Shown here: one piece after another, positions 1 through 20,090 of the stretch
Layout: each line of letters starts with the position of its first letter
Numbering within the stretch: the first letter of the stretch is position 1
Virus record (IMG/VR): IMGVR_UViG_3300011430_000048
Location: 1-20,090 of that record
Source: a virus
Reading direction: 5' to 3' (one strand)
Length of the DNA: 20,090 bases
Program-made: the position numbers and the translations under genes
Notes under the pieces: generated by a model
Seen by the model: only the letters and a program-made list of their open reading frames with translations
Told to the model about the DNA's origin: nothing
Database searches by the model: none

Positions 1-735
1 CCACCAGACGATGGCGGCCATCCCCACTATGGCGAGGGCGGCCCCGATGTTGAAGTAGGCCTGCCCGTCCAGGGCCTGGGTCGAGCCGAACCAGGTCGCC
101 ACGGTGCCAATGGTCGTCTGGGCCCCCGTCTTCACCCGGTCGAGGAGGACCAGCTTGGTGCTCTGTTCGCGGACAGTGGTCTCGCCCGCCAGCTCGATGA
201 GGCGGAGGTAGACGGGGAGGCAGCCAACCTGCTGGTCGACGTGGTTGGGGTCGTAGTTGTGGTCGGAGACGTACTTCCCCTGGACGTAGATGTTAGTCCC
301 GCTCCATACATAGGGGGAGGGGCGGCCCATCTGCGCATACCCGTACCCGTTGAAGGCCTCCCACTTGTAACACATCATCTCGATGGTCCAGGTGAGCTTC
401 CCCCAGCCCATCATCGCGATGGCGTCTAGGGCGCTCTCCTCCCAGGTCGCGAAGGGGCCTCGGCCTACGGGGACGATGGTCGTCCTCCGGCCTGTCCCGA
501 CGATGAGCTGCCCGTTGTGGAGGACGCCCTTGAAGTTCCCGTTACACTCGCGGAAGTGGGCGACGGCGATCCACGCCCAGGGGACGCCGGTTTGGCGCTC
601 GATCCCCTGGTAGCGCTCTTTTCCCGCTAGGAGGGCCCTAGCGGCGCGGTCAATCGCGCCCTGCCACTCCGGCTTGACCTGAGCCAGCTTCAGCCAGCTC
701 GTGTAGCGGGGGCCCATATACGCGAAGGTAGCCAT
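1..735 (-). CDS. Endolysin (lysozyme-like muramidase) with C-terminal membrane segment, partial
   Basis: The gene starts at ATG 735 after a strong AAGGAGACGG site and stays open for 245 codons to the window edge, so the C-terminus is missing. Residues about 40-150 (ERQTGVPWAWIAVAHFRE, later KWEAFNGYGY and SPYVWSGTN) match a lysozyme-like family common in phages and prophages of Alphaproteobacteria. E63 in the HFRE motif is the likely catalytic glutamate for cleaving peptidoglycan glycan strands. The last visible residues (about 223-245, NIGAALAIVGMAAIVWW) form a hydrophobic segment that looks like a membrane anchor, so the enzyme may be membrane-tethered or supply part of the holin function. 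No cleavable N-terminal signal peptide is visible. It is the last gene seen in the leftward late block, 24 nt after the fibre gene. The family call is from remembered motifs, not a search. Confidence 0.85.
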   Translation of the reverse strand, partial: MATFAYMGPRYTSWLKLAQVKPEWQGAIDRAARALLAGKERYQGIERQTGVPWAWIAVAHFRECNGNFKGVLHNGQLIVGTGRRTTIVPVGRGPFATWEESALDAIAMMGWGKLTWTIEMMCYKWEAFNGYGYAQMGRPSPYVWSGTNIYVQGKYVSDHNYDPNHVDQQVGCLPVYLRLIELAGETTVREQSTKLVLLDRVKTGAQTTIGTVATWFGSTQALDGQAYFNIGAALAIVGMAAIVWW

Positions 736-759
736 ATTCCGTCTCCTTACCGTCTTTCA

Positions 760-2220
760 TCACCACACTCTTCTCGCCGCTATGTAGCCCGTTCCACGAA
801 TTGTGCTTGCCGAGAAGCCCGACTCCATCACGAGGTAAATTGTGGTGGCCGCCGCCAGCTTCATAGACAAGGGGCCGACAGGGAAAATCTGGAACTGGGC
901 AGTACCCGGCGTGTATCCGGTAGGATATTGCTGCGAGAGTGCGGCACCAACAGGGTCGGGAGCCGTCGCAGCTGATGTTTTCCTGATCGCGCCCAGAAAG
1001 TTGTCAACCACGGTCGTACCTGACCCGAAGAACAGCGCGGCGGCACTTAGCGACCAACTGCCCGCAGTCAACCGAAGCGCAGCGATATTTTGCCTTGTGG
1101 CGGAAACGAAGAAGACACGAGAGTCGGCCGTGTGCGTCCCAGACTGCGACCCACCAGCGGTACTTATGAACGTGCCGGCGATTGCGTTGTCAACCGTCGT
1201 CGCTAGATTGAAGGTGTTCGCGTCGATGGCCTTGAGATAGTAGGTGATGTCGGCGACGATGGTTGTCGTCCCGCCGTTTGGCAGCGTGCCGGTTGTGGTG
1301 AATTTGACGGCAGTGACCGCCCCGACCGCAAACCCGTGCGCCACCCACGTCCCAACGCACGGGTTCGCAATAGTCAGCGTAGCCGTGGCGTTGGCGTTGT
1401 TGACCGCGTCCTCTAACCGAGACGCGATAAGCTCCCCGATGGTGCCTGCCGCCGCGCTATCATTCGTTCCTGTTCCTGTGAAGAAGCCGCGGGCGGGTGT
1501 CACGTCACCGATGGCGCCGGGTGACGAGAAGCGGGCCGCCTTGACGACGGCGGAGAGCGCGGGCGTGCCGTCGACGTAGGTCCAATCGAGGTCGCCCGTC
1601 GCCTCAGTGGCGACCAGCAGCGCGGCGATGGCGTCCTCGGCAGCCTCGGTGAAGTCGGTGATCGCCGTCGAGGCGTGCGTGTGCCCGACAGCGGACTTTT
1701 CACCGTCTAGCTCGTTAATGGCCGCTTGCACTGTGGTGGCGGCGATGTTGCCTGCTGGGGTGTTCGTGATCGCTGACCCGGCGTGGGCGTCGGCCGCGTC
1801 CGCGAGGTGGGCGGCAAGGTCGCCCGCGTCCTCCACAATAGCGGCTTGAACTTCTGTCGCGGCAATACCGGCGGCTGGGGTGAAGGCGATGGCCGATGCC
1901 GCGTGCGCTGCCGAGGTGTCCGCGATGTGTGCGGCGAGCGCCGCATCGTCTGTGGCGGCATCGCCAGCCAGCTCATCAATGGCCGCCTGCACCGTTGTCG
2001 CCGCTATAGTGCCGGCCGGGACGTTGGAGATAGCACTCGCGTCGTGGGCGTCGACGGTGTCCGCGAGGTGCGCTGTTACATCGCCCGCAACCTCCTCAAT
2101 GGCGGTTTGGACATTAGTCGCAGCCACTCCAGCAGCCGGAACGAAAGGAAGCTCAGACGCGGTAGCGGCTCCGGCGTCGGCAATGTCGTCAGGGTATCGG
2201 GCGAAGAGATACTCGGTCAT
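760..2220 (-). CDS. Repeat-containing tail fibre protein
   Basis: 486 aa. Residues 28-190 carry four degenerate repeats with the core AATxVQxAI at about 37-41, 77-81, 124-128 and 164-168. They alternate with AHLAD-xx-DAH segments, a pattern seen in trimeric phage fibre shafts. A GHTHAS motif follows at about 179-184. The middle (about 280-370) resembles a beta-domain found in many phage and bacterial surface proteins (VGTWVAHGF, TYYLKAIDANTFNLA). The C-terminal 120 residues look beta-rich and may be the receptor-binding tip. The start overlaps the preceding stop as ATGA, so translation is probably coupled. Its position directly before the endolysin is typical of the distal tail fibre. Fibre identity rests on repeat architecture and context. 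The host receptor cannot be told. Confidence 0.75.
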   Translation of the reverse strand: MTEYLFARYPDDIADAGAATASELPFVPAAGVAATNVQTAIEEVAGDVTAHLADTVDAHDASAISNVPAGTIAATTVQAAIDELAGDAATDDAALAAHIADTSAAHAASAIAFTPAAGIAATEVQAAIVEDAGDLAAHLADAADAHAGSAITNTPAGNIAATTVQAAINELDGEKSAVGHTHASTAITDFTEAAEDAIAALLVATEATGDLDWTYVDGTPALSAVVKAARFSSPGAIGDVTPARGFFTGTGTNDSAAAGTIGELIASRLEDAVNNANATATLTIANPCVGTWVAHGFAVGAVTAVKFTTTGTLPNGGTTTIVADITYYLKAIDANTFNLATTVDNAIAGTFISTAGGSQSGTHTADSRVFFVSATRQNIAALRLTAGSWSLSAAALFFGSGTTVVDNFLGAIRKTSAATAPDPVGAALSQQYPTGYTPGTAQFQIFPVGPLSMKLAAATTIYLVMESGFSASTIRGTGYIAARRVW

Positions 2221-2612: not shown

Positions 2613-2848
2613 CACAACCCCATCTTCGCGAGAAACGCCGCTTCAGTAGCGGCTTCGGATTGGGCCCGCGATGTCCCTACCACAGCAACCCACACCCCAT
2701 TTGACCAGAATTGGGGAAGGTGCCGCAGTAGCTTCGCGTGGAGCATGGCTTGCGCGATTGTCTCCCCGTAGAGCGCGACAACGTTGTCCCACCACGCTTC
2801 AGGATCGACAACCAGCTTTCCAAGTAAAATATTCTCATCGCCGGTCAT
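2612..2848 (-). CDS. Small hypothetical protein
   Basis: 78 aa. The ATG shares its A with the stop of the preceding C1q fibre gene (TAATG), and the gene ends 1 nt into the next start, so it is tightly coupled on both sides. The sequence looks helical and tryptophan-rich (DPEAWWDNVVALYGE, LPQFWSNGVWVAVVG) with a C-terminal alanine-rich helix. No known domain is recognised. It could be a fibre chaperone or a small virion component, since chaperones often follow a fibre gene directly, but nothing in the sequence proves this. Confidence 0.65.
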   Translation of the reverse strand: MTGDENILLGKLVVDPEAWWDNVVALYGETIAQAMLHAKLLRHLPQFWSNGVWVAVVGTSRAQSEAATEAAFLAKMGL

Positions 2849-3591
2849 TACCGCACCCTCTTGCCGGAGAAGTATGTCAACTGGTTGGTTGGGCTCCCCG
2901 ACTCGAAAATATCCACCACCTTCGTCCCAAAGTAGACAGTAACCTGGACCTCCGCCGTGTCTCCCGCGTCCATATCGACACCTGGGCAGTTCCAGTTGAG
3001 ACTCAACATGCCACCTATGAGGAGTGGGGCGGGGTTCTGGAATTGGAGTAGGAAAGTCCTATTCGAGGTGACGAGGCGGACGCGGACCGCCGTGTGCCCC
3101 GCCAAAAGGCCATCGAGAAACACGATCCCACCGAAGTCGTAGGTCCCCGTCGTTACGGTGGTGAACTTCCCCGTCGTGGTGTTGAACTCCCCGAGAAGAT
3201 CATAGAGGATGGTGTTGAAGATGATGCTGTAGTCTGTGTTGTCTCCCGTTACGTTTAGGATGGCTGCGCTATTGTAGGCGAAGAAGGCGGATGGCGTGAC
3301 GGAGGCAGGGAGCCACGCCACCCCGTTGGACCAGACGATGGTTTGCAGGGTGGTGTCGTAAAGAAGACCCCCCTCTCTATCGGCCGCGGGCGGCAGCTCC
3401 GCCGTAGTGACATGCTGCAAGTGGAGCGGCCCCTGCATATGCTCTGTCCCGTCGAGTGGGAAGGCGAGGTTGAGGCGGGTGGCGTGGTCGGTCTGCGTCC
3501 GTTGGTTGGCAAGCGCGCTGGCGGCCATCGTCTTGGATAGGTCAGAGCCGGGCCGCCCCTGGCTGGGGGAGATGAAGACTTTATTTGCCAT
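2848..3591 (-). CDS. Fibre protein with C-terminal C1q/TNF-like domain
   Basis: 247 aa. Residues 40-97 have the linker seen in many fibres, with MQGPLHLQHVTT followed by GGLLYDTTLQTIVWSNGVAWLP. Residues about 101-247 follow the order of a C1q-type jelly-roll. It begins with AFFAYNSAAI and has central FNTTTGKFTTVTTGTYDFGGIVF, equivalent to the 'F...tG.ft.p..G.Y.F' core of the family. It then has a DMDAGDTAEVQV strand and ends with TYFSGKRV, like the terminal 'FSG' strand. C1q domains trimerise and bind sugars or proteins, so a receptor-binding tip is likely. The gene starts 11 nt inside the preceding zinc-finger gene, preceded by GAGGGAGAGG. The domain call is from pattern recognition and no alignment was run. 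Confidence 0.7.
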   Translation of the reverse strand: MANKVFISPSQGRPGSDLSKTMAASALANQRTQTDHATRLNLAFPLDGTEHMQGPLHLQHVTTAELPPAADREGGLLYDTTLQTIVWSNGVAWLPASVTPSAFFAYNSAAILNVTGDNTDYSIIFNTILYDLLGEFNTTTGKFTTVTTGTYDFGGIVFLDGLLAGHTAVRVRLVTSNRTFLLQFQNPAPLLIGGMLSLNWNCPGVDMDAGDTAEVQVTVYFGTKVVDIFESGSPTNQLTYFSGKRVR

Positions 3592-3775
3592 CCTCTCCCT
3601 CGCAGACGTGGGCCCGCAGCTTGGCTGGGGTCCCCTTAACTGTCGCCTTGCAAAGGCGACAGTGGCCCACCCAGGTCAGGCGGGAGTTCTCATCGATGAT
3701 CCTGGCGCGAGCCTGGGGGCTCGCGCCGTAGCGGCGCCCGACAGCGATGGCGGCCCTCTTCATCTCCCTCGTCAT
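3581..3775 (-). CDS. Small CCHC zinc-finger protein
   Basis: 64 aa, starting at ATG 3775 in an ATGA overlap with the stop of the nozzle-like gene, with GGGAGGG just upstream. The frame stays open upstream to 4210, but that part only shadows the nozzle gene. The N-terminal half is basic and helical (TREMKRAAIAVGRRYG). The C-terminal half has C39-x2-C42-x13-H56-x-C58, a plausible zinc-binding knuckle of BED-like spacing, so a nucleic-acid-binding role is possible. Two perfect hairpins (3639-3663 and 3704-3727) lie inside this 195-bp gene. An RNA- or DNA-binding protein among tail genes is unusual. It may be regulatory, but the function is unknown. Confidence 0.7.
   Translation of the reverse strand: MTREMKRAAIAVGRRYGASPQARARIIDENSRLTWVGHCRLCKATVKGTPAKLRAHVCEGEDGK
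3639..3663. repeat. 11-bp perfect hairpin inside 64-aa gene
   Basis: ACTGTCGCCTT and AAGGCGACAGT flank GCA. The stem covers the zinc-finger codons of the small CCHC gene. Confidence 0.65.
3704..3727. repeat. 10-bp perfect hairpin inside 64-aa gene
   Basis: GGCGCGAGCC and GGCTCGCGCC flank TGGG. It is the second strong hairpin in the same 195-bp gene. Confidence 0.65.
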
Positions 3776-5598
3776 CTCATCCCTCCCTGCGTCACATCGT
3801 TGTCCCACCCGCTCAGCTGCCAGGGCTCCCCATCGGTCCCGAACTGGTTCTCGAAGAAGCGCCCGCGTCGGTAGTGGACGGTGAAGTGACCGCCCTCGGG
3901 CAGGGAGGTGTCGAAGACCTGGGTGTCGATGATGGTGGCGGGCCCCGATGCGTGGTCCATCATCCTCACCGTCACATTGAGGACAGAGTTGAGCTTTTCT
4001 GCGAAGGCATAGACGCGCTTGAGGAGGCTGCGGATGCGCCCGTCGCCAGTGGCGCGTCGGCCTGACCTGATGAAGGACGGGAGGAAGGCGCCGGCGCCCG
4101 TCTGGATCGTATTGATCTTCCACAGCGTCCCAGCCTCGTCCCCAACCAGGTTGAGAGGGAAAGCGGAGAAGAGCTGGGAGTCGTTCCACCGAATGACCAT
4201 CTGGTCCCACGTCTCGGTAATGTCGTCCCAGGTCAGGGCAGAGCCCACGACGCCGAGGCCGGGGGTGAGGAAGGGGAAGTCGCGGCGTGAGAAGGGAGTG
4301 GGCGTCTTGTCACCGACCTCCTCCAGGTAGTGCTCGACGAAGGCCTGCTCTGGCGGCTCCAGCTCGTCCCCCACCCCCGCGTCGGAGGTGAGAGGGATGC
4401 CCCAGATCAGCTCGCCGTTCTCCTCATCGAAGTGGTGGAAGCCGAAGTGCTGTCGAGCCGCGTCCCTGGTCCGGAGGACCTCCCGCCAGAGTTGCTGGTT
4501 GATCGTCGAGAGGGTCACCCCGTCGAAGAGATACTGCGCGTCGGCGCCGATGAACTCGTGGTAGTCCCCGAAGTCGGCCACGAGCCGGCCCGCCAGGGGG
4601 CCCACGCCCTCGCCCGCCTCGCGGAAGATGAAGATGAGGGGGTCGCCCACGAACTGGCATAGCGTAACGTGGTCGCGGGAGTAGAAGACAAGGCTGTCCC
4701 CCATGTCCTCGACCTCAGTGATATCAAACACGCCATCGTTCACCCTGAACTGCTCGCTGAGGCCCGTCCCGGTGTCGCCCGCGTTGAGGGGGAGCCCGAT
4801 GTCGCTGTTAATCATCCCGGTCGGCAGCAGCTCACCCCCATAGGTGAGGGTGGCGTAGATCATCATGTTCTTGTAGACGAAGAGCTGCTTGCAGCGGAAG
4901 TTCATCGCCGCCTGCTCGACCAGCTGGGTGGCGCTGCCGTCCCAGGTGTGGACGAACTCGGCCCCGTTGGTGAGGAAGAAGAGATCGGGGTCGACCCCGC
5001 CCGCCCCGTCGTCGGGAGCGGCGAAGGTCGCGCTGTCCCAGAACGTGGTTATGTCGCCGGTGAAGGTGCGGCTTATCGTGTAGACGGCGCCCGCCCCTAC
5101 GGTGCCGCCCGTGGTGGCGAGGGTCAGCTGGAGGCCGCCCGCATCGACGGCGGTGATCCTGATCCAGCCGGTGCCGGGCCAGGTTCGGTAGTCAGCCGTG
5201 CTGACTTTGAAGTAGTCTCCAACCTTCACCCCGGCCGCGAACCACCCCGTCCCTGTCCCCGTCACTGTCGTCCCCGATACAGCGACGGTCCCTGTCCCGT
5301 ATCGGCGGTTCAGGAGGAGCGCGACGTCGGTCTCCGGGTCATACTCGAAGACATTCTTGGTGGTGGCGATGATCTGCTTCTGGGTCCCCGCCCGGAGGTA
5401 GAAGGTTTCGATCAACATGATGGGGTCGACAAAGTCAATCGCGCTGTGCTCCTGCCACCCCAGGTTCACATTCCCCACCTTACCCTGCTTGATACGGAAG
5501 TTACGGCCGTCCTGCAGGCCCCGCGCGGGGACCATCAAGGCGTCCAACCCGTAGTAGAGGCCCAGGTTAGGGCTGATTACTGCGCTGCTCTTCGCCAT
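3772..5598 (-). CDS. Large tail protein, nozzle-like (beta-propeller type)
   Basis: 608 aa from ATG 5598. A TTG six codons upstream (5616) is less likely. The N-terminus (GLYYGLDALMVPARGLQDGRNFRIKQGKVGNV) is typical of large tail proteins of short-tailed phages that start by defining a hub and then fold as beta-propeller-like repeats, functionally comparable to T7 gp12. Around residues 295-365 it has VFDITEVEDMGDSLVFYSRDHV and GADAQYLFDG, recurring blade-like units. It follows the adaptor and precedes the fibres, which suits the tubular tail tip or nozzle. The start lies 32 nt inside the preceding Cys-rich gene. The propeller assignment is inferred from length, order and repeat texture. Confidence 0.7.
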   Translation of the reverse strand: MAKSSAVISPNLGLYYGLDALMVPARGLQDGRNFRIKQGKVGNVNLGWQEHSAIDFVDPIMLIETFYLRAGTQKQIIATTKNVFEYDPETDVALLLNRRYGTGTVAVSGTTVTGTGTGWFAAGVKVGDYFKVSTADYRTWPGTGWIRITAVDAGGLQLTLATTGGTVGAGAVYTISRTFTGDITTFWDSATFAAPDDGAGGVDPDLFFLTNGAEFVHTWDGSATQLVEQAAMNFRCKQLFVYKNMMIYATLTYGGELLPTGMINSDIGLPLNAGDTGTGLSEQFRVNDGVFDITEVEDMGDSLVFYSRDHVTLCQFVGDPLIFIFREAGEGVGPLAGRLVADFGDYHEFIGADAQYLFDGVTLSTINQQLWREVLRTRDAARQHFGFHHFDEENGELIWGIPLTSDAGVGDELEPPEQAFVEHYLEEVGDKTPTPFSRRDFPFLTPGLGVVGSALTWDDITETWDQMVIRWNDSQLFSAFPLNLVGDEAGTLWKINTIQTGAGAFLPSFIRSGRRATGDGRIRSLLKRVYAFAEKLNSVLNVTVRMMDHASGPATIIDTQVFDTSLPEGGHFTVHYRRGRFFENQFGTDGEPWQLSGWDNDVTQGGMR

Positions 5599-5944
5599 CT
5601 TCTGCCTGTAGCGCAATCGTCCGTTGCGGCGGTGGCGGAGCCATCGCCAGCTGCCTTGCCATCGCGATCTTCGCGATCAGCTGCCCCATCGTCTCCTTCA
5701 TCTCCGCGAACTGGTTCCGCATCTGTTGGGTCGACTGCGCCACGACGTCGAGGCGCTGGTTCATAATGCCCTGCGTCATGATGGGCCAGGCGAAGGCGCA
5801 GTCCCACTCTGGTCCGGTCTCCGCGCCCCGGGTCACCTGCAGGGGGCGCCAGAACATGCAGCTCTGGCAGGCCTTGGGGTGGCTGCAATCTCGCTTCACA
5901 AGTGGGCAGTATTGGCCCTTCGGCCCTGCTATCTTTCCCGTCAT
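5567..5944 (-). CDS. Conserved phage Cys-rich protein of unknown role
   Basis: 125 aa with five cysteines in the first 50 residues: C13, C20, C26, C29 and C49 in the context CPLVKRDC, ACQSCMFW and EWDCAFAWP. I recognise this arrangement from a recurrent small phage protein family (CPLxKxxC...CxxC...WxCAxxW) usually encoded near virion genes. Its role has not been established to my knowledge. The cysteines could bind zinc or an Fe-S cluster. Residues about 60-100 (NQRLDVVAQSTQQMRNQFAEMKETMGQLIAKI) form a likely coiled coil, followed by a proline-rich acidic tail. It begins 4 nt after the collar fibre stop, with AAAGGA about 10 nt upstream. Confidence 0.75.
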   Translation of the reverse strand: MTGKIAGPKGQYCPLVKRDCSHPKACQSCMFWRPLQVTRGAETGPEWDCAFAWPIMTQGIMNQRLDVVAQSTQQMRNQFAEMKETMGQLIAKIAMARQLAMAPPPPQRTIALQAEDGEEQRSNQP

Positions 5945-5948
5945 GGCA

Positions 5949-6695
5949 TCAGTCCTTTATCCCGATCACGACAATACGGCGCTTGATGTTGAAGTCCATT
6001 GCCACCCCAACGAAGGGATGGTCGTGGGTTGCGCCGCCGCCCTTCTCCGAGGATAGGCCGATGGTTGCGGCGGTGTCGCTGCCGGTTAGGATGTAGGAGT
6101 TATCTCCTAGGGAGCCGACGCTGCTGGCCAGCTGCCGGGAGGCGGTCAACCCTGGGGAGGTGTCGCCCGTGGCGCCAGCGACGACAAAGTGCTTATGCGC
6201 GGGCATCTGGGCTTCGGTAATAGCGTGGCCCGTAATGGTGCCGGTGGGGATCCGCGAGGCCCAGAGGGCGGTCATCAGCCCGGTCCCGCCGTTGAAACCG
6301 ACGCTGCTGGTCCCGAGGCCCAGGGCGACATCGTTGAAGGCGGCGTCAGTCTCTTTCGTCCAACCGACGGGCGGCACCGTCATATCGAAGAGGAGGCGGT
6401 CGCCGGAGGTGAACTCGGGGCCGATTGAGCGCCAGACATCCGGGTCAATCGAGGTCGTCATCTGAACACGGCCGAGGGTCGTGTTATAGACGAGGGAGCC
6501 GATCTCCCATGTGGTGTCGGCGTCTCGGACGGCGGTACTGTTCTGGGGCAGCTTGTGATGGCCCGAGGCGCCGTGCTCGTAGAGGAGCCAGCTCTCGATC
6601 ACCTCACGGAAGGTGCGGGCCTGTCCGGGGTAAATAGAGACGACCCCGGTATCTTCGGGGAGGGCCTCGTTAGGGGTGAAGGGTGGGCTGGACAT
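5949..6695 (-). CDS. Tail fibre with collar-type domain and HxH metal motifs
   Basis: 248 aa. Residues 62-95 (TWEIGSLVYNTTLGRVQMTT) are a typical fibre linker. Residues about 105-150 (VPPVGWTKETDAAFNDVALGL) match the start of phage tail-collar domains, where 'PxGW' is the hallmark. The C-terminus has PAHKHF (HKH at 167-169) and GATHDHPF (HDH at 224-226), followed by DFNIKRRIVVIGIKD. Paired HxH motifs of this kind bind metal ions in trimeric fibres such as T4 gp37. The likely role is a short tail fibre or collar protein involved in host attachment. Start ATG 6695 has GGAG 7-10 nt upstream. It lies between the adaptor and the Cys-rich gene, so it may insert at the tail collar. Confidence 0.8.
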   Translation of the reverse strand: MSSPPFTPNEALPEDTGVVSIYPGQARTFREVIESWLLYEHGASGHHKLPQNSTAVRDADTTWEIGSLVYNTTLGRVQMTTSIDPDVWRSIGPEFTSGDRLLFDMTVPPVGWTKETDAAFNDVALGLGTSSVGFNGGTGLMTALWASRIPTGTITGHAITEAQMPAHKHFVVAGATGDTSPGLTASRQLASSVGSLGDNSYILTGSDTAATIGLSSEKGGGATHDHPFVGVAMDFNIKRRIVVIGIKD

Positions 6696-6736
6696 GGTGG
6701 CTCCGAGATGGCGGGGCCCTAGTCTAGCAGGTCAGC

Positions 6737-7504
6737 TCACCGGAGCCAAGGGTCCCGGCGGTGGGTGTGGCGGGCCCCAAAGGCGTCCTTGTGGGGGACG
6801 AGGGTCTGGATACGGCTGACCTGGAGGCGCTTGTCGCGATTTATCGCCTCCTGCAGCTTCTCGGCCGCCCGCTGGGTCCACATCGTTGCCCGCTCCTCAT
6901 CCTCGTTGGTGAAGAACCCATAGGCGGTCGCCTGGAGGAGGAGCCACTCCTCCGCATTGGTGGTGAACCAGTTGGTGTCGCCCCCTGCGGAGAGGGCGGT
7001 GAGGTACTTCCAGTAGGGGACCCGGATGCGGTACTCGCCGTCGGCGTAGAGGGAGAGGCTGTCCGAGAGGGGCCACACCTCCAGGTTGGAGGCGCCTGCC
7101 TCGGAGGTGGGCTCGCTGCGGAGGACCATCTGGGGTGGCCCAATCGTCAGGGCGGAGTCGGCCTCCCCGCCGGCATCGGTGGTGACGTCAAACTCGACGG
7201 CCGCGCGGCTCTGGCCGATCTGCAGCTCTTGGATGTCGCCCGAGGCGTGGATCACGTATGGGCCGACCCCGGTGACGGGGTCAAGGCGGAACTCTTTGAA
7301 GTCGGCTGGGGTAGCGACCAGCACCCGCGTAGCGGGTGCTGTGACAAGGACGGCGGTGGCCGCCTTCATCACCTCGAAGTTGTGCCGCGTCTGCAGCGTC
7401 TTCATCGCCCGGTTGAGATAGGTGGGGATGAGCGCGGAGACGGCGGTGGGGACATCGATGAGGTTGGTGGCGACCTCGGTCTGCAGCTCGGTGAAAGTGG
7501 CCAT
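6737..7504 (-). CDS. Head-to-tail adaptor (neck) protein
   Basis: 255 aa. The N-terminus (FTELQTEVATNLIDVP..LIPTYLNRAMKTLQTRHNFEVMKA) has the helical pattern of podovirus adaptor proteins, in which a 'NRA...RHN/W' helix packs against the portal. The middle is beta-rich and the C-terminal 70 residues are helical (AEEWLLLQATAYGFFTNEDEERATMWTQRAAEKLQEAI), the usual end of the family. It should form a ring under the portal, connecting head to nozzle. Start ATG 7504 follows the preceding gene by a few nucleotides, with AAGGGG upstream. A perfect 10-bp hairpin (7319-7341) lies in the coding sequence. The assignment is from pattern and gene order. Confidence 0.7.
   Translation of the reverse strand: MATFTELQTEVATNLIDVPTAVSALIPTYLNRAMKTLQTRHNFEVMKAATAVLVTAPATRVLVATPADFKEFRLDPVTGVGPYVIHASGDIQELQIGQSRAAVEFDVTTDAGGEADSALTIGPPQMVLRSEPTSEAGASNLEVWPLSDSLSLYADGEYRIRVPYWKYLTALSAGGDTNWFTTNAEEWLLLQATAYGFFTNEDEERATMWTQRAAEKLQEAINRDKRLQVSRIQTLVPHKDAFGARHTHRRDPWLR
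7319..7341. repeat. 10-bp perfect hairpin inside adaptor gene
   Basis: CAGCACCCGC and GCGGGTGCTG flank GTA. Confidence 0.65.
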
Positions 7505-12233: not shown

Positions 12234-12518
12234 TTACGCCGCCGTGGTAGGGGGTGTCAATAGCGGGGCATAGCGGGCGGCGCTTCCCTGGGCGCCCCTT
12301 TCCCGGGCCCCCATGCGGGCGAGGAGCCGCTCATTCGCCAGGAACTCCATCCAAAGGGCGAGAGCGAGGTCGGAAGTGAGGGTTCCCTGGGTCTGGGCGG
12401 CCTTCGCGCGGTTCACGACCGCTAGCTGCATCTTCGCGATGGCGTCCTCCAGGTAGGGGAGGAAGCCCTGGAGGCGCGCTAGCTGCGAAACCTCGCCCAT
12501 TTCCTGTGCTTCGTTCAC
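12234..12518 (-). CDS. Small helical protein between portal and scaffold
   Basis: 94 aa, starting at GTG 12518 in a GTGA overlap with the portal stop, with GGGGTGG about 9 nt upstream. The body is helical (EVSQLARLQGFLPYLEDAIAKMQLAVVNRAKAAQTQGTLTSDLALALWMEFLANERLLARM), with a short disordered C-terminus. Small helical proteins in this slot are frequent in short-tailed phages, but I cannot name the family. Coupling to the portal gene suggests a head-assembly role. An internal ATG at codon 7 is a possible alternative start. Confidence 0.7.
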   Translation of the reverse strand: MNEAQEMGEVSQLARLQGFLPYLEDAIAKMQLAVVNRAKAAQTQGTLTSDLALALWMEFLANERLLARMGARERGAQGSAARYAPLLTPPTTAA

Positions 12519-14359
12519 TGTTTGGCCACCCCGAGGGCTTGAACCATCTGCTGCATCTCCGGCCCGGCCCCACCTGGGGCCTCGGGCGCGCCCTGTCCGG
12601 GCGGAACCCCCTGCGCGCCCAGCGCCTGCTGTTGCGCAGCCTGGAAGGCCTGCGCGGTTTGCTGCATCATCTGCTCACGTTGCGACATAGTCACCTTGGA
12701 GATGTCGACATCGCTCAGCTTGAAGAGGAGTTTGATGAACTTCCCGAGGTCAACCTGCCTCATGAACTCCCCGAGCAGCTCGGGCGACTGGGAGAGGAAG
12801 GACATCAGCTGGAGGAGGGACTTCAGCATCCGGCTCTTTTGGATCATCGAGCTGATGCCGTGCGCCTGGAACGTCAATGGGCGCGAGGCCAGCTCTTTGC
12901 GCCGCGCCATGAGCGGCCCGAAGAGGTCCTCCCCACAGGCCGCCTTGAGGACGGGATCATTCACCGACATATGCTGGAGGCCGGTCTTCCAGACGAGGTC
13001 GAGTTGGGGGTTGAGGACCCTGGTCTCGACCGTCTGGGCGATGCTGCGGATGACGGCGCTGCTCGACTCCTGGGTCTGACTGATCTCGGTCGCGGAGGTC
13101 CGCCCCTTCGGGGCGAAGCCGCCGAGGCCGATCTCGTTCTGGTTCGCCGCCTCGGTCAGCTCCTTCTTGATCGCCTGCCAGACAGCCATCGCGTCGGGGC
13201 CCATATTGCCCAGGTCGATGGCCTTCATGAAGTCCTCGGCCCGGGTCCCGTCCTCCAGCTGGAAGAGCTTGTTCGGCGTCAACCCGCCGGCCATTTGCGA
13301 GGGGTCGGAGAGCATCGACGGGACGCAGACGAAGGCCTTCATCGTGCTCACCTGGACGGCGTCCAGGATGAGGTTGGTCAGCATGTTGAAGGTTTGGGCG
13401 AGGGAGCCGAAGTCCTCCATGTAGGTTCGGCCGTAGACGGAGAGCGGGGTGATGATGAGGGGCGAGTAGGTCAGCCAGTCGCGCCCGTGCCAGTAGGGGT
13501 TCTTCTCGGGCCCGCGGATGAGGAACTGCCCGTTGCCGAGCACCATCAGCGCGTCCTTCGCGAGGACTTTCCCGGAGCTGTCGACCACGGTGGCGAGGTA
13601 TTCGTCCATCGTGATAGGGGTCCGGGTGCTGGATTGCGCGGCGCCGTGCCCGGTCAGGTCCTCCTTCTGGCGCTCGCTGTCCAGCTCAATGTGGGAAACC
13701 ATCTGATCGATGGCTTCCATGTTGTAGATGGGTGAGCCCGCCTTGTCCTTCTGCAGGGCCATCGCCCGCAGCTCGTGCTTGTCCAGCTCGATCCGGCGGA
13801 TACGGTACAAGTTCCGGTAGGTGGGGTCGAGCCAGACGTTGCGGGGATCGGTCGTCTCGATGGCGACCCGCCCGTACTTGCCATAACTGTCGTCCCAGCG
13901 GGTGACCGAGCTGCACGCCATCAGCGCGCCGAGCTTGATCTGTTCCTCGAAGACGGCGGGGAAGCCCAGACAGGTGCCCATCTGGTTGCGGCCCGTCATG
14001 GAGAGCCAGCAGTCATTCATCCGCTTAACGGCGGAGGTCAGGTCCCCCTCCACATCGGCCGGATCGTCGACGGTGTAGAAGCCATCGGGCCCCGTGACCA
14101 GGGCCTCTTTCAGGGCGGCGGCGAAGCGGTCCACAAAAGCTGGCACTTCGGGCAGGTGCTCCTTCGCCTGCCAGCTAGCCTTCGTGGTGTAATCCTGGCG
14201 GCCCCAGTAGAGGTGGAGGTTGGAGGTCCACTTAGCGTCCCTTGGGTTGAGGCCGCCCTTGCGTGCGTTATCGGCCTCCTGGAAGTATCCAGTCAGGACC
14301 GGGACGATCTTGTCCGCATTCTCAGTGGAGGGCCCTTTTAGGGCCACGTCATCCGCCAT
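12515..14359 (-). CDS. Portal protein
   Basis: 614 aa, the right size for podovirus portals. The N-terminal third (VLTGYFQEADNARKGGLNPRDAKWTSNLHLYWGRQDYTTKASWQAKEHLPEVPAFVDRFAAALKEAL) and the following blocks (MTGRNQMGTCLGFPAVFEEQIKLGAL, TTDPRNVWLDPTYRNLYRIRRIELDKHELRAM) match the clip/wing pattern of portals. DPRNVWLDP is particularly typical. Residues about 390-450 contain helices and RTSATEISQTQESSSAVIRS. The C-terminus is Q/A/G-rich. It forms the dodecameric DNA gateway to which terminase and the adaptor bind. The ATG has no Shine-Dalgarno in the usual window. AGGGAG lies upstream of a hairpin that would bring it to 9 nt when folded. Confidence 0.85.
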   Translation of the reverse strand: MADDVALKGPSTENADKIVPVLTGYFQEADNARKGGLNPRDAKWTSNLHLYWGRQDYTTKASWQAKEHLPEVPAFVDRFAAALKEALVTGPDGFYTVDDPADVEGDLTSAVKRMNDCWLSMTGRNQMGTCLGFPAVFEEQIKLGALMACSSVTRWDDSYGKYGRVAIETTDPRNVWLDPTYRNLYRIRRIELDKHELRAMALQKDKAGSPIYNMEAIDQMVSHIELDSERQKEDLTGHGAAQSSTRTPITMDEYLATVVDSSGKVLAKDALMVLGNGQFLIRGPEKNPYWHGRDWLTYSPLIITPLSVYGRTYMEDFGSLAQTFNMLTNLILDAVQVSTMKAFVCVPSMLSDPSQMAGGLTPNKLFQLEDGTRAEDFMKAIDLGNMGPDAMAVWQAIKKELTEAANQNEIGLGGFAPKGRTSATEISQTQESSSAVIRSIAQTVETRVLNPQLDLVWKTGLQHMSVNDPVLKAACGEDLFGPLMARRKELASRPLTFQAHGISSMIQKSRMLKSLLQLMSFLSQSPELLGEFMRQVDLGKFIKLLFKLSDVDISKVTMSQREQMMQQTAQAFQAAQQQALGAQGVPPGQGAPEAPGGAGPEMQQMVQALGVAKQ

Positions 14360-14367
14360 GGGCGTAG

Positions 14368-14388
14368 GGCGGGGACAGAGTCCCCGCC
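14368..14388 (-). promoter_or_regulatory. Hairpin between Shine-Dalgarno and portal start
   Basis: GGCGGGGAC and GTCCCCGCC form a perfect 9-bp stem with a 3-nt loop. AGGGAG lies at 14395-14390 and the ATG at 14359. Unfolded, the distance is 30 nt. With the hairpin excluded it is 9 nt, normal spacing. No other ribosome site is visible before the ATG. Confidence 0.6.
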
Positions 14389-14395
14389 ACTCCCT

Positions 14396-14746: not shown

Positions 14747-14808
14747 AGTGGTCTCCGGGTTCGGGTAGGCGATAGGAGTAGCATGGGCGAGGCGGGAAGG
14801 GAAGGCCC

Positions 14809-16630: not shown

Positions 16631-17354
16631 CGGACTCCCCTGTAGCTACAACCGCGAGGGCGGCCCCGGTCGCGGTCTCCCTCGCGCTACGGGCGCGCTT
16701 TAGCGCGCCCCGGCGCTGGAGCACCTTCTCCCGGGCGGCCTTCTTTGTCTTGTACTCGATGCTCTCCCGCGGGGTGAGGACCCGCTTCTGAGGGCCCGCC
16801 TTCCGACGTTGCTTCCGCTCTGTGGCCTGTCCCTCGATGGCTTCCTCTGGAGAGGGCAACGTAGTTGCCCTCTCCACGTCGGCCTTCAGCTCGTATATGT
16901 TGGGGTGCTCGGCGGTCCCACCCGCTAGGTTGTCCCCGCCCATGGGGAGGGAGGTGTTGATCTGGATTGGGACGGTGACGTTGACGTTCGAGCGCTCGCT
17001 GAAGACTTGAGGGTTACGCTTGGCCGCAGACCAGCGCAGCTGCCCAACGTATGCCTCTAGCTTCCGGACGTCGACTTGGGTCATCCCAGTCTGGGTGAGC
17101 GACTTCCGCAGCCGAGTGAGGGCCTCATCCTCCTGTGCGTATGCGGACATCTCCCTCGCTTTGTTGTACAGCATCCCAACTTGCGGCTCCCGCATGACGA
17201 GGGAGAGGAATTGCTGGACGGTGGGCATCCCGGGGAGGTTGGCGATGTCCGAGAGGTCCATCCCGAAGGCGACTTGCTCGCAGAAGGAGAAGACGGCCTC
17301 GGGATCGACCAGCTCCCCCTCGCGGGGGCGTAGCATGGGGAGGATTTCACTCAC
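16608..17354 (-). CDS. terS: Terminase small subunit
   Basis: 248 aa from GTG 17354, which overlaps the ATPase stop (GTGA). A TTG at 17390 in the same frame is a weaker start. Residues about 33-80 (ICEQ-like FCEQVAFGMDLSDIANLPGMPTVQQFLSLVMREPQVGMLYNKAREM) form a helix-turn-helix of the type used by small terminases to bind packaging sites. Residues about 90-125 (MTQVDVRKLEAYVGQLRWSAAKRNPQVFSERSNVNV) match a common small-terminase segment ('R..A....WlaaKr.P..y..r'). The C-terminal 90 residues are basic. It recognises phage DNA and recruits the large subunit. A hairpin (17356-17378) covers the ribosome site. A 13-bp hairpin (16848-16876) lies inside. Confidence 0.8.
   Translation of the reverse strand: MSEILPMLRPREGELVDPEAVFSFCEQVAFGMDLSDIANLPGMPTVQQFLSLVMREPQVGMLYNKAREMSAYAQEDEALTRLRKSLTQTGMTQVDVRKLEAYVGQLRWSAAKRNPQVFSERSNVNVTVPIQINTSLPMGGDNLAGGTAEHPNIYELKADVERATTLPSPEEAIEGQATERKQRRKAGPQKRVLTPRESIEYKTKKAAREKVLQRRGALKRARSARETATGAALAVVATGESDGRAPQG
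16848..16876. repeat. 13-bp perfect hairpin inside terS
   Basis: TGGAGAGGGCAAC (16848-16860) and GTTGCCCTCTCCA (16864-16876) flank the loop GTA. This is the longest perfect short-loop stem seen in the window. It lies wholly in coding sequence. Confidence 0.7.
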
Positions 17355-18505
17355 CGCTGGCCACCCTCGGTGGCCAGCTGCCACACCCAATCGCTAGTTC
17401 CGTCCGGGTGTTCGAGCTGGATCGACTCGGCGAGGCCATCTTTCGCCCTTCGGAGGGTCCGCTCGCTGATGTTGAGTCGGTTTGCCTCGGAAAGGACGTC
17501 AATTGCGGCCCTTGGACCGTCTTTCAGGTAGCCGGAGAGCCACTCGACCGCGTTTTGGAGCGCTTTTGGCGTCCGCGAGATGGTCGTGGGCACCTTTTCG
17601 ACGTACTTTCCGGTCCAGCGGAGGCATCCGTGGTCATTCCCCACCTCCGCAACCGGCTCAATAGCGTAGGAGATGCCGTCTCCATCCGGTCCCACATTGC
17701 CTTTGGTACGCGCCAGGTAGCGACGCCCGTCTTTCCCGACGATAGCGCTGCTTTCGCAGCGCGCAAATCCGCTAATGTCAATGGAGCCGAGGCCTGAGTA
17801 GAGCTTATTGTCACCTGGTTGCCCTTTCCTTCTGTGACGGACGAAGACGACGGCGCAGCCAGTCTCCAGCGCGACCCTCCGGAGGATGCCGGCCCACTCC
17901 CGGGTCTCATTCGCCCGGTTCATGTCGACGTCGGAGCCCATCCAGGCCTGGAGCGGGTCGATGACGAGGAGCCTTATCTGCGCCTCCCTCACGGTTCGCT
18001 CGATCTCCCTCGCGAGGGCGATGTCAATCGTCGCCTGCTGGTCGGTGATGAGGACACGGTTGCGGTCGGCGCCCTGGTTGTCCAACCGCCACGCGATTGT
18101 GTCGTCCGCTGCGTCCTCCCCGTTCATGATCCAGGTGTTCATCGGCGGCCGCTTGAGGGAGACGGGGTCGCCCGGGAGGGGGCGCCCGGTGGAGAGGGCG
18201 GCCGCGATCTCGCAGGCGATGGTCGACTTCCCCGCGTTGGGGTCGCCCGTGAGCAGGTTGATGGCCCGACACTGGAGGAAGGGGCGCCAGAGCCAGTCTA
18301 TCGGCCGCTTCTTCACGTCCCTTAACCACACTGCCTCTAGCCTGTTCCGGGGTTTGGGCGGGGGGTTGCGGTTGGGGGTGGGAGCATCGTCTGGGGCGCC
18401 GCTTTGCGGCGCCCTCCGCTGAGTCGTCATCGCCCGCTCGGGCCCGCTGCGCCGAAGCGCCTGCTGACGCATGTTCTCGGTCATCTGCTCTTCTGGTGTC
18501 GTCAT
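17351..18505 (-). CDS. AAA_25/RepA-like ATPase, probable replicative helicase
   Basis: 384 aa. Walker A is at 87-95 (GDPNAGKST), Walker B at about 178-183 (RLLVID), and RHRRKG at 223-228 is followed by SGLGSIDISGFARC. This order is characteristic of AAA_25 RecA-fold ATPases related to RSF1010 RepA. The C-terminal 60 residues (GPRAAIDVLSEANRLNISERTLRRAKDGL) form a winged-helix-like DNA-binding domain. The first 50 residues are low-complexity and proline-rich. It probably assembles as a hexameric DNA helicase or replication initiator. It is the first gene of the leftward block, directly bordering the 843-bp non-coding region. Start ATG 18505 follows GGAGGGCGGG. Confidence 0.8.
   Translation of the reverse strand: MTTPEEQMTENMRQQALRRSGPERAMTTQRRAPQSGAPDDAPTPNRNPPPKPRNRLEAVWLRDVKKRPIDWLWRPFLQCRAINLLTGDPNAGKSTIACEIAAALSTGRPLPGDPVSLKRPPMNTWIMNGEDAADDTIAWRLDNQGADRNRVLITDQQATIDIALAREIERTVREAQIRLLVIDPLQAWMGSDVDMNRANETREWAGILRRVALETGCAVVFVRHRRKGQPGDNKLYSGLGSIDISGFARCESSAIVGKDGRRYLARTKGNVGPDGDGISYAIEPVAEVGNDHGCLRWTGKYVEKVPTTISRTPKALQNAVEWLSGYLKDGPRAAIDVLSEANRLNISERTLRRAKDGLAESIQLEHPDGTSDWVWQLATEGGQR
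17356..17378 (-). promoter_or_regulatory. Hairpin over terS ribosome site
   Basis: GCTGGCCACC and GGTGGCCAGC form a perfect 10-bp stem with a 3-nt loop, ending 1 nt before the GTG start at 17354. On the mRNA the loop is GAG, and it forms the GAGGGTGG ribosome site with the 3' arm. Ribosomes ending the ATPase gene would open the stem, coupling the two genes. Confidence 0.55.
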
Positions 18506-18616
18506 CCCGCCCTCCGTCTTGGGGCCAACAGCCCGTCACCGTCCGTAAGGGCACGACCCTATGCTGGGACGGCTGGGGCCGTTGGCTGAGCGGAAAGTAG
18601 CACGGCGGCGCCGGGC

Positions 18617-18656
18617 TTGGCAATGTGACGGGGTGTCGCAGGGGTCACACTGCCAA
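18617..18656. repeat. TTGGCA inverted repeat upstream of ATPase
   Basis: TTGGCAATGTGAC (18617-18629) and its near-complement GTCACACTGCCAA (18644-18656) differ at one position and are 14 bp apart. A further TTTGGCAGT lies at 18685-18693. The proximal arm overlaps a weak -35 candidate (TTGCCA at 18623-18618, with TACTTT 18 nt downstream on the minus strand), so it could be an operator for the ATPase-terminase operon. Confidence 0.5.
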
Positions 18657-18814
18657 AGTCCCCTCTCCCCTAAGTGAATTGCCGTTTGGCAGTCTAGAAG
18701 CAGAGCCGAGAGTTGCTGTACTGAAGATCGGCAGTAGAAACCCCTTCCAGGCTAGCGCCCGCGCCCTAGCGGGCGCAGCGCAGGCCGCCTGATATGGGGC
18801 GAGGGGCCACGTGG

Positions 18815-18855
18815 CCTATCCCCTATCACCACTGCCTCTTCCCCTATCCCCTATC
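18815..18855. repeat. Direct repeat of CCTATCCCCTATC
   Basis: The 13-bp sequence occurs at 18815-18827 and 18843-18855, and each copy holds two CCTATC units. Short direct repeats in a non-coding region next to a RepA-like gene could be initiator-binding iterons. Two copies are few for an origin. Confidence 0.5.
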
Positions 18856-18879
18856 GGCCGGGGGCGAGCGCAGCGAGCC

Positions 18880-18900
18880 CAACTTGCCGAAGGCAAGTTG
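18880..18900. repeat. 9-bp perfect hairpin in divergent region
   Basis: CAACTTGCC and GGCAAGTTG flank GAA. A second stem, CGGGGTTA with TAACCCCG, follows at 18904-18929 with a 10-nt loop. Confidence 0.6.
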
Positions 18901-19043
18901 TCGCGGGGTTATCAGTTTTGCTAACCCCGGGGGCCCTGGGTCCTCCGTGCACCCCGGAATGAATTTCCCGTTTCGCGAAAACCGTCTGGGGCCCCAAGAC
19001 ATGGTCCCGCCGGCCGGCGGCCGGCCTGGGGAAGTTGCTTCTG

Positions 19044-19068
19044 CAACGGGCCGCGGAGCGGCCCGTTG
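19044..19068. repeat. 11-bp perfect hairpin with competing stem
   Basis: CAACGGGCCGC and GCGGCCCGTTG flank GGA. GTTGC-TTCT-GCAAC at 19034-19047 shares the CAAC and would compete with it, an attenuator-like arrangement. Confidence 0.6.
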
Positions 19069-19251
19069 TATGTACACGCACCCTCCGCCCCCATCCTGTC
19101 GACAAAAGCACGCATAAAGTGACTGGCCCGGGCGGGCTTATGTGGGAGAACAAAACGGGGACAAGGTTGCCCTATACGTTAACCTGAGGGAACAAAAGGG
19201 CATCAGTCTTATATAAGACCAGGGCCGATGGGTGCGACACTCTGCCACACC

Positions 19252-19275
19252 AGCGAGGCACACTCGTGCCTCGCT
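19252..19275. repeat. 10-bp perfect hairpin upstream of rightward unit
   Basis: AGCGAGGCAC and GTGCCTCGCT flank ACTC, about 75 bp before the ATG at 19349. Confidence 0.6.
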
Positions 19276-19309
19276 TGCCGCCGCCTCCTCGTGTACACAA
19301 GGGAGGCCA

Positions 19310-19331
19310 GGGCCGCGCATTCGCGCGGCCC
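19310..19331. repeat. 9-bp perfect hairpin before 75-aa gene
   Basis: GGGCCGCGC and GCGCGGCCC flank ATTC, ending 17 nt before the ATG and just upstream of its ACGGGGAC site. It may influence translation initiation. Confidence 0.6.
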
Positions 19332-19348
19332 ATAGAACGGGGACTAGC

Positions 19349-19576
19349 ATGCGCAAAGCAAGACCATACTGGCACGTATTCACCCGGGCGCACGGCCTTG
19401 GTCAATACTGGCACCACGAAATCGGCTTCGACAATCGAGCCGACGCAATGGCTGAGGCGCAAGACTATAGCGACAGTGGGCGTCGAACCTTTGTCTGGCG
19501 CACCTTTTGGGGCGCCGATCCTGCGGACAAATGCCGCGCGCTCAATCACGAGCTAGTAATGAAAGGCAAGCCATGA
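19349..19576 (+). CDS. Small hypothetical protein, first rightward gene
   Basis: 75 aa from ATG 19349, preceded by ACGGGGAC. The open frame extends back to 19232, but that part overlaps two hairpins and has no ribosome site. The protein is aromatic and polar (ARPYWHVFTRAHGLGQYWHHEIGFDNRADAMAEAQDYSDSGRRTFVWRTFW) and ends HELVMKGKP. It has no cysteine cluster, signal or membrane segment. I do not recognise a family. It is coupled by an ATGA overlap to the metalloprotease gene, and a hairpin (19310-19331) sits 17 nt upstream of the ATG. Early-gene status is inferred from the divergent direction. Confidence 0.65.
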   Translation: MRKARPYWHVFTRAHGLGQYWHHEIGFDNRADAMAEAQDYSDSGRRTFVWRTFWGADPADKCRALNHELVMKGKP

Positions 19577-20090
19577 CCACGAAACGGAAGCCACGCACCC
19601 ATGACGCCTATGTGGCGGCCGTGGCGCGCCTAGCGGCGCGCCACACAGAGGCAAAGGCAGACGACAAAGCCACCATTCGAAAGGTGCGCCTAGTCTGGGG
19701 CGACGGGCCCGATAATACGTTGGGGATAACCCGCTATAACAAATGGCGCGGCGCGGATGGGGGCGTCTCGCATTGGTGCGCCGTCTGCGCGACCGCTCAC
19801 CCTTCGACTCCGCATCTAATCGCCGAGACCGTGCTGCATGAGTTAGGCCACGCGGTTGTCGGCCCCGGCTTCGGCCACGGGCCAGAGTGGAAGGCTGCAT
19901 GTGCGCGTCTCGGCTTGGTGGACGCAAAGGCCACCTATCAGCACGGCGACACGCCGACATTCTCCGCGTGGATGCTTGCCCAGCTGCAACGTCTTCCTGT
20001 CCCCAATGAAGGAGTGACCGTGGATCGCCCCATCATAACGGGCTTGCCTATTCCGCCAGCCGGCCCTATCCCCATCCGCCCATGCGGCGC
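19573..20090 (+). CDS. SprT-like zinc metalloprotease, partial
   Basis: The first 172 codons are seen and the frame runs off the right edge. HELGH at 89-93, with H102 in the following GFGHGPEWK, is the HExxH...H zinc-binding pattern of SprT/Spartan-like metalloproteases. E90 is the catalytic base. W68, C69 and C72 (HWCAVC) precede the active site, and TLGITRYNKW before it is also family-typical. SprT-like domains in eukaryotes cleave DNA-protein crosslinks. In phages the target is unknown, but DNA-metabolism or host takeover roles are usually assumed. A hairpin with 10-bp arms (19621-19644) lies inside. It starts in an ATGA overlap with the 75-aa gene. Confidence 0.85.
   Translation, partial: MTTKRKPRTHDAYVAAVARLAARHTEAKADDKATIRKVRLVWGDGPDNTLGITRYNKWRGADGGVSHWCAVCATAHPSTPHLIAETVLHELGHAVVGPGFGHGPEWKAACARLGLVDAKATYQHGDTPTFSAWMLAQLQRLPVPNEGVTVDRPIITGLPIPPAGPIPIRPCG
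19621..19644. repeat. 10-bp perfect hairpin inside SprT-like gene
   Basis: GTGGCGCGCC and GGCGCGCCAC flank TAGC, near the 5' end of the metalloprotease coding sequence. Confidence 0.65.

Follow-up and report, generated by a model that had tools for sequence, protein, structure and literature searches.

Perfect short-loop hairpins with a common tip and unrelated arms in a phage genome

Hairpins and genes of the window

The window, the whole stretch of 20,090 nt analysed here (64.0% GC), belongs to a phage known only from database contigs. Its genes include those for an SU10-type adaptor, a major head protein, a portal-like protein, a small terminase and a primase/helicase-like protein, and it holds 18 perfect stems of at least 8 bp, nine of 10-13 bp and nine of 8-9 bp (Table 1). 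All 17 hairpins listed in a preliminary description of the sequence were confirmed as perfect stems; the one at 18755-18776 had been missed. The − strand ORF that ends the window is 367 aa long in the second record described below, and gene 11325-12131 lies between the portal-like and head protein genes.

Table 1 Perfect hairpins with stems of at least 8 bp in the window
Position	Stem (bp)	Loop (nt)	Loop on + strand	Location
624-644	8	5		− strand ORF ending the window
3639-3663	11	3	GCA	possible small Cys/His-rich − strand reading frame after gene 3775-5616
3704-3727	10	4		same stretch as 3639-3663
7319-7341	10	3	GTA	SU10-type adaptor gene 6740-7504
9374-9393	8	4		gap between genes 9400-9972 and 8610-9356
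10338-10356	8	3		major head protein gene 9997-10923
11888-11912	11	3		gene 11325-12131
14368-14388	9	3		gap just before portal-like gene 12515-14359
16691-16710	8	4		late in small terminase gene
16848-16876	13	3	GTA	small terminase gene
17356-17378	10	3		end of primase/helicase-like gene 17351-18505, around small terminase start
18394-18414	9	3		early in primase/helicase-like gene
18755-18776	8	6		before primase/helicase-like gene
18880-18900	9	3	GAA	between divergent gene blocks
19044-19068	11	3	GGA	between divergent gene blocks
19252-19275	10	4		between divergent gene blocks
19310-19331	9	4		between divergent gene blocks
19621-19644	10	4		conserved + strand ORF 19507-20088

The second record, IMGVR_UViG_3300011440_000028 (45,577 bases; hereafter G001), represents the same phage and contains the window with 16 differences. 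Since two separate records that differ in this way share 17 of the 18 hairpins intact (19252-19275 has one mismatch in G001), an artefact of a single assembly is unlikely.

Excess over chance and codon use

With loops of 3-6 nt, the window has 18, 13 and 9 stems of at least 8, 9 and 10 bp, respectively, against means of 2.25, 0.8 and 0.2 in 20 dinucleotide shuffles; the preliminary expectation of fewer than 0.1 stems of 10 bp was thus of the right order. The corresponding counts for G001 are 32, 23 and 15 against 4.33, 0.90 and 0.20 expected. Codon-preserving shuffles were run on 34 G001 genes (33.3 kb) from a simple ORF caller, chosen as those of at least 600 nt plus some picked by hand, with one antisense frame swapped for the real gene. 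These genes contain 15, 12 and 10 stems at the three lengths against 3.27, 0.96 and 0.30 in the shuffles, and none of the 300 shuffles reached the observed count at any length. The outcome named beforehand as a refutation, similar counts in codon-matched shuffles, did not occur. The 15 stems correspond to 14 distinct coding hairpins, because one in a gene overlap was counted twice. Chance and base composition are therefore ruled out by the two kinds of shuffle, and the excess spans coding and non-coding DNA, as had been proposed: 14 of the 32 G001 hairpins are inside genes, and 11 lie in the 20-25 kb stretch between divergent gene blocks.

A common shape with unrelated arms

The hairpins are alike in shape, not in sequence: stems measure 9-11 bp and a C-G pair closes a loop of 3-4 nt; GNA loops are frequent and occur on either strand. 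The CGC-loop-GCG core noted earlier holds in reduced form: 16 of the 18 hairpins in the window have a C-loop-G closing pair. Among the triloops of the three contigs taken as the excess set, G001, L003 and L005, 22 of 25 are closed by a 5'-C and 13 of 25 read GNA on one strand, compared with 4 and 1, respectively, of 21 triloops in other contigs (neither set took in G006 or L004; the 21 were drawn in part from G004, itself enriched in 8-bp stems, and L013 yielded none).

Perfect stems exceed expectation about 30-fold (22 vs 0.73), whereas stems with one mismatch do so only about 2.5-fold (8 vs 3.15; 10 vs 3.85 with loops of 3-6 nt). Stem length is apparently capped at 11 bp: 11 stems have this length and 1 exceeds it (P 0.049 relative to a geometric fit). 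No motif was found in the flanks, where information did not exceed 0.09 bits; for both the stem-length and the flank-motif pools, stems that G006 has in common with L003 were removed first. The arms differ in sequence, as the preliminary description had observed, and together with the absence of a flank motif this rules out one repeat family.

Distribution among related contigs

The trait is restricted to a few of 42 contigs, a count in which some were covered in part only (e.g., L045, L054 and L055) and loci that duplicated a contig were merged or dropped. Four records from terminase matches served as control phages, two of which were covered for 50 of their 61 kb. No stem excess was found in G003. 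Of the five stems of L003, its close sister L004 has none, and of five mapped G001 stems L004 has one. One related species has a hairpin of its own at 6 of the 11 mapped G001 sites, a count that excludes 18394-18414, which did not map.

Site by site, the place of 11888-11912 carries a different 8-bp stem in L003 and G006, that of 16848-16876 a different 11-bp stem in L003, and that of 9374-9393 a different 8-bp stem in G006, with a GNRA-type loop in both. At 16691-16710, L003 has another 8-bp stem and L004 a 9-pair stem with one G-T. The stretch with 18394-18414 is absent from L003 and L004, and by eye an 8-bp stem of L003 lies across the same place. At 17356-17378, stems in L003 and L004 are of 3 bp at most, and at 3639-3663 no stem of at least 8 bp was found in G006 or G005. 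At 18755-18776, stem and loop are identical in L004. Shorter stems of 6-7 bp occur at 4 of 9 sites in G005 and 3 of 7 in L054, against about 5% at control places (a different 7-bp stem lies at 3704-3727 in both), which hints at older hairpins.

Arm covariation, proposed earlier as a check, came out mixed: a related species has other hairpins at the same places, but column by column covariation was almost absent. In relatives, pairing was barely higher than in slid controls (0.39 vs 0.30), and double changes at nine coding hairpins were 0.081 vs 0.067. The pairing-conservation test found almost no covariation save at 624-644 against G006, where 8 of 8 pairs are kept with one double change. Tolerated stretches of genes account weakly for the agreement in sites with the related species: the hairpin sites have a mean conservation percentile of 0.39, and 8 of the 13 fall below the median (P 0.047). 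The stem at 10338-10356, whose site has a conservation percentile of 0.88, is probably set by conserved codons.

Searches with the portal, head, primase, tail, small terminase and 367-aa proteins found no genome above about 87% DNA identity besides G001, which is no proof of absence because collections may leave out records very near the window.

RNA-level and insertional alternatives

Selection at the RNA level, for mRNA processing, stability, termination or translation control, would suit the hairpins in gene gaps at 9374-9393 and 14368-14388, and also the G006 counterpart of the former with its GNRA-type loop. We regard it as improbable, and the earlier suggestion of RNA processing or translation control was not supported. 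Sense-strand G-T stems do not outnumber A-C controls (34 vs 41 rows for six sequences, 45 vs 49 with G004, some stems being entered at two loop lengths), and a T-rich flank (at least 4 T within 8 nt beyond either foot) accompanies 4 of 32 hairpins. No Rfam family was found in the window, and covariation in relatives is scarce; one site, 624-644 against G006, shows a double change. As GNA loops occur on both strands and there is no sense-strand preference for G-U, the signal looks like DNA. Intrinsic terminators, which have a GC-rich stem and a short loop, resemble these hairpins in both respects and in the location of some in gene gaps; they were rejected since a T-rich flank occurs at only 4 of 32 and 14 of 32 lie within genes.

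Inserted palindromic elements, either REP-like or ultra-mobile hairpins as in some mitochondria, appear very improbable. They would agree with 18394-18414, which lies in the stretch absent from L003 and L004, and with 17356-17378, which spans a length difference. Yet the insertion of whole palindromes, another of the earlier proposals, is unsupported because 9 of 12 coding sites have a gap-free alignment with one or more relatives that lack the hairpin sequence. Furthermore, the arms are unrelated, the flanks show no foot motif, and the Y1 transposase of REP/RAYT or IS200-type elements was found in 0 of 6 contigs (control detected in 5 of 14 genomes), which leaves room for a transposase encoded elsewhere. 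The hairpins at targets of diversity-generating retroelements are likewise short DNA hairpins in phage genomes, but here there are many sites; they were rejected, as the reverse transcriptase PF00078 was found in 0 of 6 contigs (control detected in 3 of 14 genomes).

A possible replication-linked mutation process and a less likely DNA-level function

The earlier interpretation is partly supported: among its proposals, a feature of replication comes nearest to the reading that we favour, to which we give about even chances, namely that the hairpins are footprints of replication-linked mutation on hairpin-forming DNA. Observed are the excess, its confinement to a few related contigs, a common tip on unrelated arms, the rarity of imperfect stems and, in a related species, other hairpins at matching places; the template switch is our inference. 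In this reading, the tip, which is stable and self-complementary (C-loop-G, loop of 3-4 nt, on one strand often GNA), would fold in single-stranded or nascent DNA, and the polymerase would switch template inside the fold and copy one arm from the other. A single step could thereby turn an imperfect inverted repeat into a perfect stem of about 9-11 bp, stems could be re-perfected after later mutations, and many products would be purged by selection on the encoded proteins.

Several observations count for template switching: the tip is constant with the arms free, the signal looks like DNA, genes are rewritten at the same length (9 of 12 coding sites), and perfect stems are in excess over imperfect ones (22 vs 0.73 against 8 vs 3.15), as expected of template-switch footprints. 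At two sites, L005 2747-2771 and 7319-7341, the arm 5' of the GNA loop is common with a relative and the other arm is changed, as fold-back copying predicts, although one of the two is also explicable by a conserved peptide. By eye, 7319-7341 shares 9 of 10 bases of one arm and 4 of 10 of the other with G006, and about 8 of 10 in each arm with L064. Elsewhere in genes, arm divergence is too great to say which arm is new; 16848-16876 was dropped as a case of one old and one new arm, since a codon alignment shows both about equally unlike L003. No birth of a hairpin was caught among the 16 differences between the window and G001.

PMC8794818 and PMC6649704 argue for such a process in other genomes. 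Quasi-palindrome template-switch mutations (PMC8794818, PMC8604942) are similar in that they give perfect stems in one step with homogenised arms, favour stable tips and cause multi-base changes in coding DNA. They are single events over long histories there, whereas here about 30 stems occur in one 45-kb phage genome, close relatives are without stems and the switch event is itself inferred. The coding palindromes of nematomorph mitochondria (PMC6649704) are similarly numerous perfect inverted repeats within genes, with no imperfect excess and with gains and losses between species, but they reach 284 bp, whereas the phage stems, with their shared tip motif, end at 11-13 bp. No description of such hairpins in a phage was found in the open-access papers searched, which is not proof of absence. 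If the mutational reading is true, this lineage would have built up a record of a process mostly known from isolated events, and the related phages that are without the trait would let polymerase, repair enzyme and host be compared as causes. Same-place hairpins and double substitutions, usually taken as selected structure, could then arise without the structure being needed.

Several observations count against template switching: the agreement at 6 of 11 sites, the apparent cap at 11 bp, the 6-7 bp stems in G005 and L054, and column-by-column pairing close to that of controls. The narrow stem size, the common tip, the agreement in sites and the hairpins between divergent gene blocks would instead suit a selected function of the DNA, in which extruded hairpins, or ones folded in single strands, would be recognised by shape and act as promoters or as sites for priming or recombination. 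Arms may then change while tip, size and place stay. We consider this unlikely, with a small but real chance; if true, DNA hairpins would act as signals across the whole genome independently of their sequence. Slightly less likely still is its specific form, in which a protein reads about 30 extruded elements, each about one helical turn long and tipped by C-loop-G, regardless of their arms, with places kept and arms rewritten between species. The absence from L004 of all five L003 stems and of most mapped G001 stems, the lack of an excess in G003, the GNA loops on both strands and the want of an identified reader protein speak against it. A parallel is the promoters of the N4 virion RNA polymerase (PMC4496689), which are DNA hairpins with partly free arms; extrusion of the early promoters depends on the same C-G closing pair and on 5' G and 3' A loop bases. 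However, the three N4 promoters have stems of about 7 bp and conserved bases, and here the sites are many. A G..A loop on a consistent template strand was not found, the 13 GNA triloops of 25 lying on one strand or the other. PF00940, used to look for a virion RNA polymerase, was found in 0 of 6 contigs, but its control was detected nowhere and the ends of the G001 contig may be missing; family searches with the large proteins gave no family for G004 and tail fibre families for G002.

The family A polymerases of relatives that are without the excess are 51-56% identical to that of G001, which also counts against replication-linked mutation as the source. This variation of the trait between related phages with similar polymerases would fit a host genome that is itself stem-rich through its own repair or replication enzymes, the phage sharing that environment. 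In bacteria, inverted repeats with arms of at least 10 bp take up on average 3.14 bases per kb (PMC13155455), so hairpin-rich hosts are plausible. We nevertheless hold this to be quite improbable. The one match in the genome contigs searched, a Rhodothermales MAG contig with a terminase 67% identical, has 2 stems against 0.43 expected, none of at least 9 bp.

Excess of perfect hairpins in the phage genome

The preliminary description had claimed an excess of perfect short-loop hairpins and listed 17 of them; every one was exact on re-inspection, and an eighteenth was found (18755-18776). The excess is real, and is neither chance nor ordinary. The window contains 18 stems of at least 8 bp against 2.25 expected, and 9 against 0.2 at 10 bp or more. 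A longer contig of this phage, IMGVR_UViG_3300011440_000028 (45,577 bases; hereafter G001), contains the window sequence with 16 differences; 32 stems were counted in it against 4.33 expected from shuffles preserving local dinucleotide content (15 against 0.20 at ≥10 bp). Codon-preserving shuffles of 34 G001 genes left the claim standing, with 15 stems seen (14 distinct) against 3.27 expected and 10 against 0.30 at ≥10 bp; none of the 300 shuffles equalled the observed counts. The 12.3 kb outside those genes held 18 stems. Four named phages of 42-50 kb each had 0, 2, 4 and 0 stems of at least 10 bp. According to a survey of 118,019 genomes, bacteria average 3.14 inverted-repeat bases per kb (arms ≥10 bp), mostly intergenic (PMC13155455). 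By our own arithmetic the density in G001 is about 8 bases per kb (loops 3-6 nt), which is elevated, though not unheard of; the unusual points are the share of hairpins within genes, the tip they have in common and the difference from relatives.

Stem and loop architecture

With loops of 3-4 nt, G001 has 7, 6, 8, 0 and 1 stems at 9, 10, 11, 12 and 13 bp, where at most 0.3 is expected in each class. Loops of 5-10 nt showed a mild rise and those of 11-15 nt were near expectation. Perfect stems of at least 9 pairs with loops of 3-4 nt numbered 22 against 0.73 expected (shuffle maximum 3), and one-mismatch stems of the same class 8 against 3.15 (shuffle maximum 10), or 10 against 3.85 with loops of 3-6 nt. 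G-T-paired stems on the sense strand were no commoner than A-C-paired ones; a structure maintained as RNA would be expected to show both G-U pairs and near-perfect forms.

The hairpins most likely reflect a known mutation process that is unusually strong in one phage lineage. This process, best read as quasi-palindrome perfection, is inferred and has not been seen directly: a stable tip would fold, and the polymerase would switch onto the opposite arm, copy it and then return. Template switching has been argued to make perfect stems in a single event, and stable tips may prime it (PMC8794818); the same perfect-or-absent pattern is described in mitochondrial genes, with repeat conversion suggested (PMC6649704). 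The 11 bp ceiling fits this process less well, as does the positional agreement between species, for which tolerated stretches account only weakly.

In the 25 triloop hairpins of G001 and two other phage contigs, L003 and L005, the loop was closed by a 5'-C in 22 (P 2e-7 by composition) and read G-any-A (GNA) on one strand in 13 (P 9e-7); 21 control triloops gave 4 and 1, respectively. Shorter triloop stems of 4-7 bp in G001 had GNA in 9-18% and 5'-C in 28-56%, so the tip is a property of long stems. By our own reading of the nine G001 cases, the GNA strand was sense in 3, antisense in 4 and unassigned in 2. No sequence motif was found in the hairpin flanks. This tip also bears on the main rival explanation, that these are DNA hairpins under selection: N4 promoters require the same closing pair and loop bases for extrusion (PMC4496689), and GCGAAGC-type DNA mini-hairpins are described as extraordinarily stable (PMC10527192).

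The new arm was readable at two coding sites. At the L005 hairpin, one arm is common to contig G005, and the other shows three differences, each in the direction of pairing; one more lies in the loop. At 7319-7341, one arm, which encodes a conserved peptide, matches contig G006 at 9/10 bases and the other at 4/10; against L064 both arms are equally similar. The altered arm was the 3' arm on the GNA-loop strand in both cases, in line with the prediction of fold-back copying, though two sites are not proof. The general pairing test gave 0.39, close to the 0.30 of its controls, and double changes stood at 0.081 against 0.067.

Hairpins in related phages

All 188 fourfold sites of the terminase stretch shared by L003 and G006 are identical, and the two are a single species. 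Relative to G001, between 48% and 66% of fourfold sites are kept in the genes of L003, L004 and G006 (about 41% expected at saturation). For 6 of the 11 G001 hairpins that could be mapped, the L003/G006 species carries a perfect stem of its own (≥8 bp) whose centre lies no more than 12 nt away; at control places the figure is 0.3%. The arms are unrelated at most agreeing sites; the homologous arms at 624-644 differ by one double change. L004, whose terminase shares 71% of fourfold sites with L003 versus 54% with G001, has none of the five L003 stems; of five G001 stems that mapped it has one, in identical form; its second small-terminase site has 9 pairs including one G-T. Eight other contigs had no stem of at least 8 bp at 55 mapped sites. 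Stems of 6-7 bp occurred at 4/9 sites in G005 and 3/7 in L054 (control places about 5%), partly on the codon-bound head-protein site. Stems can thus persist, be rewritten or be lost at a place.

Among 42 contigs, the excess was clearest in G001, followed by L003 (5 against 0.77 expected), L005 (3 against 0.70), G006 (9 against 2.83), G004 (16 against 4.23, almost all 8 bp) and L013 (7 against 1.63, no triloops). G002 had 7 against 3.43, but 3 against 0.07 at ≥10 bp; G003 had 4 against 4.27. L004 (2 against 0.50), L010, L027, L053 and L067 were slightly raised, on contigs too short to judge, and the remainder were close to expectation; the strong trait is thus limited to a few related contigs. 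Relatives without it have family A polymerases 51-56% identical to that of G001. G004 (L039, L030, L040) had 13 stems of exactly 8 bp against 2.6 (loops 3-6 nt), longer ones being scarce, while in G003, where 2.3 would be expected at 8 bp, no stem with a 3-4 nt loop reached that length; the stem-length ceiling may be lineage-specific.

Gene content

The window, an entire 20,090-base record of a tailed phage, encodes matches to PHROG families of the small terminase, large terminase, portal-like connector and major head protein, and one protein matching the SU10 adaptor family. Neither tRNAs nor Rfam families at gathering score were found in it. Among named phages, the terminase matched 17 records at 23-28% identity, and no record was found for the head protein. 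Further products encoded by G001 are a DNA polymerase of family A, a member of the uracil-DNA glycosylase superfamily, two metallophosphoesterases, a PD-(D/E)XK nuclease and a Sak4-like ATPase. The Pfam match of the polymerase begins at residue 154, leaving scant space before it for an exonuclease domain. The hairpin-rich 20-25 kb stretch of G001 may carry early promoters or an origin.

Coordinates of hairpins and other features in the window and two further contigs
Sequence	Position	Feature
Window	624-644	Hairpin
Window	760-2220	ORF; protein built with repeated modules
Window	1709-1863, 1970-2124	Repeats within this ORF, 74% identical
Window	2848-3591	Protein with weak C1q-domain match (E 6e-5, just below Pfam cut-off)
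Window	3584-3772 (- strand)	Possible 63-aa protein, Cys-x2-Cys ... His-x-Cys pattern, no Pfam match; codons span the next two hairpins
Window	3639-3663	Hairpin
Window	3704-3727	Hairpin
Window	7319-7341	Hairpin, coding
Window	18755-18776	Hairpin
L005	2747-2771	Hairpin, coding
G001 (L032)	5337-6956	Family A polymerase, 539 aa; gene contains a hairpin
G001	20-25 kb (covers roughly 17,600-20,090 of the window and extends past it)	11 of 32 hairpins, between leftward and rightward gene blocks; small ORFs uncertain
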